A stretch of DNA of 64,000 nt. Origin: Candidatus Saccharicenans sp. GTDB taxonomy: Bacteria; Acidobacteriota; Aminicenantia; Aminicenantales; Saccharicenantaceae. Below, piece by piece: positions 24,996 to 26,500 of this stretch. Position 1 is the first letter of the stretch. Each line of letters opens with the position of its first letter. Position numbers and translations under genes: made by a program. The stretch covers positions 82,561-146,560 of the forward strand of contig JASEFX010000003.1 in NCBI GenBank assembly GCA_030018265.1, in the 5' to 3' direction. Under the pieces are notes generated by a model that worked only from the letters and a program-made list of their open reading frames with translations, made no database searches and was not told the origin of the DNA.

Positions 24996-25017
24996 TATAA
25001 CGATTTTCGGTTGTAAG

Positions 25018-25107
25018 ATGAGAGAGAATATTAATTTCGTTAAAAGCCTCCTCCTTACCGTCTCCTCCTCTTCCGCTAATTCCTCCTGGATCTGGTGGGC
25101 GGCTTAG
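25018..25107 (+). CDS. Putative tryptophan-sensing leader peptide upstream of trpB2
   Basis: 29 codons plus stop, below track cut-off: MRENINFVKSLLLTVSSSSANSSWIWWAA*. Three Trp codons in four near the stop; promoter just upstream, trpB-family gene 91 nt downstream. RBS is weak. Confidence 0.7.
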   Translation: MRENINFVKSLLLTVSSSSANSSWIWWAA

Positions 25108-25195
25108 TCCGCCCTGAGTCTGCGTCTATTTACCATACCCAATTAAACAACTTGATTAAGACTTTTGACTCTTCAAATCAAAAAGCCAGGAGGAA
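25080..25195 (+). promoter_or_regulatory. Putative translational attenuator: leader anti-SD (25080-25089) complementary to trpB2 SD (25186-25195), with two intervening hairpins
   Basis: TTCCTCCTGG (25080-25089) is the exact reverse complement of CCAGGAGGAA (25186-25195). Internal hairpins: GGGCGG-CTTAGT-CCGCCC (25097-25114) and TTGATTAAGA...TCTT(CA)AATCAA (25152-25181). Confidence 0.5.
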
Positions 25196-25198
25196 AAA

Positions 25199-26500
25199 AT
25201 GAAAAGATACGATTCGAGAAAAACAAGCTATTTGCCGGAAAACTTTTACAACATCAAGGCTGACCTGCCGGAGCTTCCTCCCCCGCCGCTTAACCCGGCC
25301 ACCGGTCAGCCGCTGCGGCCGGAAGAGCTTGAACCTGTGTTTCCACGCGCTTTTATCCAGCAGGAAATAAGCGCCGAACGCTTCATCCCGATTCCTCCGA
25401 AAGTTCTGGAAATCTTTTCCATCTACCGCCCGACTCCTCTGATTTACGCTTCAGCTCTGAGAAAATACCTGGACACGCCGGCCAGAATTTTTTACAAATA
25501 TGAGGGCGTCGGCCCCGCCGGCAGCCATAAGACCAACACCGCTCTTGTCCAGGCTTACCTGGCCTCACAAGAAGGCACAACAACTCTAACCACCGAGACC
25601 GGAGCCGGCCAGTGGGGGTCAGCTCTTGCTTTCTCCTGCCGACAGTTTGGAATCAACGCCCGGGTATTCATGGTCAGGTCCAGCTACCGGCAGAAACCCG
25701 GTCGACGCATAATGATAGAATTGTTCGGAGCTCAGGTTCTGGAAAGCCCCAGCCCGACCACCGCCTCAGGTCTCCGCTTTTACGAGAAAGACCCGAACCA
25801 TCCGGGAAGCCTGGGAATAGCCATCTCCGAAGCTGTGGAAGCGGCCGTAAGCCAGCCTGAAACTAAATATTCTCTCGGTTCGGTTCTTGACGCCGTCCTC
25901 ATGCACCAGACAGTCATAGGACTTGAAGCCATGAAACAGTGCGAGGAGTTTGGCATCGAGCCAGACCTGGTGGTCGGTTGTGTCGGCGGCGGCTCGAATT
26001 TTGCCGGCCTCAGTTTTCCGTTTCTCGGGAAAAGGCTGAGAGAGAAGAAATCAGGACCCCGCTTCCTGGCGGCTGAACCGGAAGCCTGTCCTTCCATCAC
26101 ACGAGGTGAGTTGAAGTACGACCACGGCGATACTGCCGGATTTACACCGCTTCTTTTCATGCACACGCTCGGAAAGGATTTTGTCCCGCCCGCCATTCAC
26201 GCCGGCGGACTCAGGTATCACGGAATGGCTCCTCTGGTCAGTCATCTGGTGAAGCTCGGACTGGTGGAAGCGAAAGCTTACTCGCAGAAGCAGATCTTTG
26301 CCGCGGCTGAGCTCTTTCTTCGCACTGAAGGCATTCTCCCGGCTCCGGAATCAGCCCACGCCATTGCCGCCGTGATAGATGAAGCACTGGAAGCCAGGAA
26401 GTCCGGGCGGGAAATAAACATTCTTTTCAACCTTTCCGGACACGGCTTTCTCGATATTAACGCCTACGACCGGACGGTGTCAGGAAACGGACATGGTTGA
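25199..26500 (+). CDS. trpB: Tryptophan synthase beta-like protein, TrpB2 type
   Basis: YRPTPLIYASALRKYLDTPARIFYKYEGVGPAGSHKTNTALVQAYLA...LTTETGAGQWGSALAFSCRQFG; long N-terminus and the PLP lysine context typical of TrpB2. No trpA adjacent. Confidence 0.93.
   Translation: MKRYDSRKTSYLPENFYNIKADLPELPPPPLNPATGQPLRPEELEPVFPRAFIQQEISAERFIPIPPKVLEIFSIYRPTPLIYASALRKYLDTPARIFYKYEGVGPAGSHKTNTALVQAYLASQEGTTTLTTETGAGQWGSALAFSCRQFGINARVFMVRSSYRQKPGRRIMIELFGAQVLESPSPTTASGLRFYEKDPNHPGSLGIAISEAVEAAVSQPETKYSLGSVLDAVLMHQTVIGLEAMKQCEEFGIEPDLVVGCVGGGSNFAGLSFPFLGKRLREKKSGPRFLAAEPEACPSITRGELKYDHGDTAGFTPLLFMHTLGKDFVPPAIHAGGLRYHGMAPLVSHLVKLGLVEAKAYSQKQIFAAAELFLRTEGILPAPESAHAIAAVIDEALEARKSGREINILFNLSGHGFLDINAYDRTVSGNGHG

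Follow-up and report, generated by a model that had tools for sequence, protein, structure and literature searches.

The regulatory logic of ermC is that of translational attenuation, and in translation-type T-boxes and in TRAP it is Trp supply that governs access to the Shine-Dalgarno (SD) sequence of trp genes. The leaderless polycysteine short open-reading frames (ORF) of mycobacteria (Canestrari et al. 2020) are cited as translation attenuation (PMC13236596). Trp leaders of Corynebacterium and Streptomyces act via transcription terminators (PMC1262725), as does the leaderless trpL of S. meliloti (PMC7298713). Searches of an open-access library turned up no Trp leader acting on the translation of its gene. 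Here we analyze a candidate for such a system upstream of trpB2, using a stretch of 64,000 nucleotides from a Candidatus Saccharicenans genome (the window) and related loci of the class Aminicenantia.

The trpB2 gene is solitary in the window, with large ORFs flanking it on both sides on the opposite strand (Table 1). Its product scores 656 bits against NF009057 and 605 bits against TIGR01415, has 6hul chain B as its closest PDB match and is ~80% identical to the TrpB2 of its nearest named relatives, Candidatus Saccharicenans (Aminicenantes) genomes. We consider it fairly probable that this stand-alone gene is controlled by a Trp-sensing, ribosome-mediated translational attenuator. Ribosomes would translate a leader ORF of 29 codons close to the start of the transcript; with ample Trp-tRNA the ribosome would complete the leader and depart, allowing UUCCUCCUGG to pair with the trpB2 SD and block translation, and with scarce Trp-tRNA it would stall on UGG-AUC-UGG-UGG, mask this anti-SD and open the SD.

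Table 1. Features of the trpB2 upstream region, in window coordinates
Feature	Start	End	Strand	Remarks
Sigma-70-type promoter TTGACA-16-TAAAAT	24968	24995	+	11/12 consensus positions matched
Leader ORF MRENINFVKSLLLTVSSSSANSSWIWWAA, then stop	25019	25108	+	Trp codons at 25087, 25093 and 25096; no SD upstream
Anti-SD arm UUCCUCCUGG	25080	25089	+	Within leader codons; 3′ end is the first Trp codon
GC hairpin GGGCGG-CUUAGU-CCGCCC	25097	25114	+	5′ end within last Trp codon; loop holds stop codon
C-over-G, U-rich spacer	25115	25170	+	AGUCUG near 5′ end; similar stretch 3′ of the hairpin in several clades
trpB2 Shine-Dalgarno region CCAGGAGGAA	25186	25195	+	Complementary to anti-SD
trpB2	25199	26500	+	TrpB-like PLP enzyme; NF009057, TIGR01415

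A search of the genome to which the window belongs recovered neither trpA (PF00290) nor indole-glycerol-phosphate synthase (PF00218). Because this genome is 90.6% complete, we regard the absence of trpA and trpC from the host as likely rather than certain. Across the class, trpA is missing from 126 of 143 genomes and indole-glycerol-phosphate synthase from 127 of 143, both being present in all 14 control genomes. In a host without trpA and trpC, TrpB2 is probably an indole-salvage enzyme, the lone protein presumably making Trp from external indole, and a switch responding to Trp starvation fits this role. In three genomes of the class that possess a trp operon, trpE is preceded by a different, Tyr/Trp-rich leader ORF (MCKWLKDIEMTHLYWYYWYWYAQRVGR, MRLRNFSQTHLHRYYWYWFMKRVGR and MGERERKIIILINSEIHPRYYYWWYMRVGL; at about position 5685 of L201, 3604 of L206 and 184 of L204, all on the - strand). 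Its ATG lies near a TATAAT box, AGACCC repeats are conserved downstream of it, and it is possibly a joint Trp/Tyr attenuator.

Orthologous trpB2 upstream regions were gathered from public genomes and from 143 Aminicenantia genomes, yielding 60 distinct loci after deduplication. A leader ORF with Trp codons is present in all 60, and we therefore conclude that the leader ORF is real. The Trp codons lie close to the end of the ORF or, in L092, ahead of the hairpin described below; at this end the encoded peptide usually reads W-x-W-W-A (SSWIWWAA in the window), extended outside Saccharicenans by x-x-S/T-A-R/L/Q. A few more distant TrpB2 genes of the class, with 55% identity (L137, L138, L141, L142), are likewise preceded by Trp leaders, and at TrpB2 loci of other phyla such leaders appear only as a chance-like match in 2 of 55. 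In most genomes, TGGTGGGCGG-n-CCGCC is found a single time, at trpB2; none of seven inspected off-target matches had a comparable leader, and a search of viral contigs returned nothing.

Relatives carry an equivalent promoter at the same position as that of the window, and in 53 of the 60 loci its -10 box ends 5–12 nt upstream of the leader ATG. With the transcript start predicted from the promoter, the leader ORF is very probably leaderless in most relatives. The window departs from most of them: 22 nt separate its leader ATG from the -10 box and no SD precedes it, so that the route by which this leader would be translated is less clear than in relatives. An in-frame AUU at 25004-25006, 15 nt upstream of this ATG, lies 8 nt past the -10 box, the position of the relatives' leaderless ATG. 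By eye, additional hairpins can be drawn within the leader ORF in clade V (GGACAGC/GCUGUCC, e.g. L018 and L020) and in some Saccharicenans (GAUGCAC/GUGCAUC, e.g. L002 and L006).

The original prediction rested on an exact complementarity between the leader and the trpB2 SD, and this holds: TTCCTCCTGG (25080-25089) is the precise reverse complement of the SD region, and its last three positions (25087-25089) are the first Trp codon. Leader (25019-25089) and ribosome-binding site (RBS) share no complement longer than these 10 nt, a length reached in 0.60% of 3000 dinucleotide-shuffled leaders (mean 5.98). Both the minimum-energy and the centroid folds of 25010-25230 contain the exact 10-bp helix (z -2.1). 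Being pyrimidine-rich, the leader forms a fairly good duplex with any SD; 13.5% of the 37 other RBSs in the window pair with it as well as or better than its own SD. The complementarity might be a by-product, a U/C-rich leader pairing with any purine-rich SD, and any action of the leader might take another route. The pairing of leaders with other RBSs speaks for this explanation, as does pairing that is mostly at chance level except in Saccharicenans and two f5 sequences. It leaves two observations unaccounted for, namely that synonymous recoding under the codon use of the clade abolishes both pairing and switch with the peptide unchanged, and that partners swapped within the genus pair worse. 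We give it little credence.

These observations come from partner-swap and synonymous recoding tests, which took the place of a fixed-register covariation count because the register of the helix varies between species. Over the 60 loci, swapping partners makes the leader/SD duplex less stable (-11.7, sd 0.31, vs -13.0 for true pairs; 0 of 5000 permutations), and a breakdown by clade locates this difference in Saccharicenans. There, the mean duplex energy over 16 sequences is -19.0 kcal/mol, compared to -17.5 when partners are swapped within the clade (p 0.0008) and -13.5 when the same peptide is synonymously recoded with the codon use of the clade (mean z -2.1). L001 pairs UUCCUCCUGG with CCAGGAGGAA and L092 pairs UCCUUCUUGG with CCAAGGAGGA, each over 10 bp; both arms differ between the two, with three two-sided changes, and helix length is kept. 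Pairing is weak in four sequences of the Saccharicenans clade (L008, L094-L096). At the level of sequence, the conservation of leader and promoter, the pairing and, in Saccharicenans, a bias of synonymous sites towards the pairing can be regarded as demonstrated.

Conservation of the pairing stood within Saccharicenans, where it is kept while both arms change, but not in most of the class: the other clades for the most part pair no better than chance even though they retain leader and hairpin. Within-clade partner swaps were not significant in clades U, V, W and X. A class-wide anti-SD was considered and rejected, the clade-by-clade test being negative in T, U, V, X and Z, weak in W (L134 and L110 only) and positive in Y. 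The anti-SD is a trait of Saccharicenans and a few others, and as such leaves the class-wide role of leader and hairpin unexplained; since most clades keep these two elements without an anti-SD, the conserved core must act differently there.

Clade U (L013-L016, L019, L022, L127, L131, L133, L149, L150) presents a different arrangement, in which the trpB2 start is predicted to pair just past the leader stop (CUGAAAAUC with GAUUUUCAG, CCAU with AUGG). From the leader stop codon onwards, these sequences carry UGAAAAUC, CCAU and UUUUUC, for which trpB2 codons 4-7, its start codon and its SD are potential partners. According to the folding prediction, this pairing may be an alternative way to close the trpB2 start; covariation is apparent in one column only, and in the model a Trp stall leaves the pairing closed.

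Stalling was modeled by computing how much it costs to open the RBS, both for free RNA and with the Trp codons covered by a ribosome footprint, in a folding model that ignores co-transcriptional kinetics and trailing ribosomes. When folded under such a mask, the leader has its anti-SD covered by a ribosome stalled at the Trp codons. In Saccharicenans, the modeled Trp stall reduces the opening cost by 2.97 kcal/mol on average, compared to 0.39 ± 0.33 (maximum 1.16) for 30 synonymously recoded leader sets, and the RBS of the free leader is computed to be costlier to open than in the recoded sets (12.6 vs 10.1 ± 0.35). For the window, the modeled cost is 10.8 when free and 5.1-7.9 with a stall at Trp. 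Predicted relief is nearly independent of footprint size, and a simulated stall early in the leader yields none. In a second family, represented by two sequences (L023, L024), the modeled relief is 4.17 vs 0.46 ± 0.62 for recoded leaders; the single members L134 and L110 of clade W respond to the simulated stall, and clades T, U, V, X and Z show no group-level response. The attenuator model originally put forward is supported for Saccharicenans, where pairing surpasses swaps and recodings and the modeled stall frees the RBS, but it does not extend to most of the class, which lacks the pairing. From these features we infer that the leader is translated, that ribosomes stall on it, that the system responds to Trp and that control is exerted at the translational rather than the transcriptional level.

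The GC hairpin of the window, with arms at 25097-25102 and 25109-25114, is present as first described. A GGGCGG/CCGCC hairpin directly follows the last Trp codon in 59 of the 60 loci, the exception being L092, where the Trp codons precede a hairpin rebuilt as GGGGGGG/CCCCCC. With near-invariant arms elsewhere, L092 is the sole informative case for hairpin covariation. The stop codon falls in the hairpin loop in most Saccharicenans and past the 3′ arm in most others; its position shifts and the hairpin stays, which argues that the hairpin is kept as RNA. One possible role in the window is a shortening of the loop that separates the anti-SD and SD arms. A second, AU-rich hairpin at 25152-25181, proposed to help fill this loop, is weak: it consists only of TTGATT/AATCAA around an 18-nt loop, lies outside the minimum-energy fold and shows no visible conservation among relatives.

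Abutting the Trp codons, the GC hairpin would open under a stalled ribosome, and could on this account be read as the terminator of a classical intrinsic-terminator attenuator. We deem this very improbable. Consistent with the initial assessment, nothing terminator-like is found on the + strand between promoter and trpB2 in the window and no U-tract follows the hairpin; in relatives, the nearest U-run lies ~20-25 nt downstream of it. An Rfam search at gathering and permissive thresholds returned no credible family, including no Trp_leader and no T-box match.

The spacer beyond the hairpin bears on a further explanation, in which completion of the leader would let Rho load on the C-rich, G-poor stretch past the stop and terminate before trpB2, an outcome that a stalled, coupled ribosome would prevent. 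In the 35 nt past the hairpin, C exceeds G in all clades (e.g. 0.27/0.02, 0.45/0.17, 0.26/0.04), and mildly so in the window, where (C-G)/length over the spacer is 0.113, compared to -0.022 ± 0.076 for 14 other upstream segments. Termination by Rho would account for the conservation of leader and hairpin where the anti-SD is missing, and might coexist with translational attenuation, as E. coli toiL-topAI illustrates that the latter can be coupled to Rho termination (PMC12121999). This compositional signal is nevertheless weak and unspecific, the putative rut would be left uncovered by a ribosome stalled at Trp, and the Saccharicenans bias towards leader/SD pairing goes unexplained; we view this explanation as unlikely. 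A motif resembling AGUCUGUCC occurs in the spacer at 25115-25125 and at the equivalent place in several clades, outside the SD pairing.

Translational attenuation through the anti-SD remains our preferred reading for Saccharicenans. More tentatively, the loci may represent Aminicenantia-wide, leaderless Trp-leader attenuators of lone trpB2 genes, combining a fixed sensing core (leader peptide, Trp codons and the near-invariant GGGCGG/CCGCCC hairpin) with an exchangeable output: the anti-SD in Saccharicenans and one other family and, elsewhere, either a locally sequestered start codon or an exit of the Rho type. If true, an uncultured bacterial class would join those with leader-peptide control, here of an enzyme that probably salvages indole in cells lacking the Trp pathway, and the loci would offer a natural series, with the same sensor with or without the anti-SD, in which to study how attenuators change their output. 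In Saccharicenans, a ribosome short of Trp would probably turn the stand-alone enzyme on.

Among known systems, attenuators of the ermC type share with the proposed one a leader-stalled ribosome that frees the sequestered start of the next gene; erm leaders sense a drug together with the nascent peptide and control an rRNA methylase (PMC11264731), whereas the proposed sensor here is an empty tRNA. The trp attenuators of Actinobacteria and S. meliloti trpL also have two or three UGG codons in their leader peptide genes, and trpL is leaderless, as most Aminicenantia leaders very probably are, but they act through a terminator on a trp operon gene, and here there is a lone trpB2 and no terminator (PMC1262725, PMC7298713). 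Compared with the classical trp attenuator (Rfam Trp_leader), the Trp codons are thus present and a terminator with U-tract is missing. With Trp supply setting access to the SD, the proposed mechanism also resembles translation-type T-boxes and TRAP; unlike T-boxes, these loci match no T-box or other known RNA family, and the translated leader is the likely sensor. The nearest precedent in design is provided by the mycobacterial polycysteine leaderless attenuators, in which a short leaderless ORF strings together codons for the amino acid that the genes downstream supply (PMC13236596). They involve Cys, Actinobacteria and operons, rather than Trp and a single trpB2, and their description in PMC13236596 mentions no hairpin comparable to the class-wide GC hairpin found here. 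With a run of Trp instead of Cys codons, the Aminicenantia leader would work alike without being a member of the polycysteine type.
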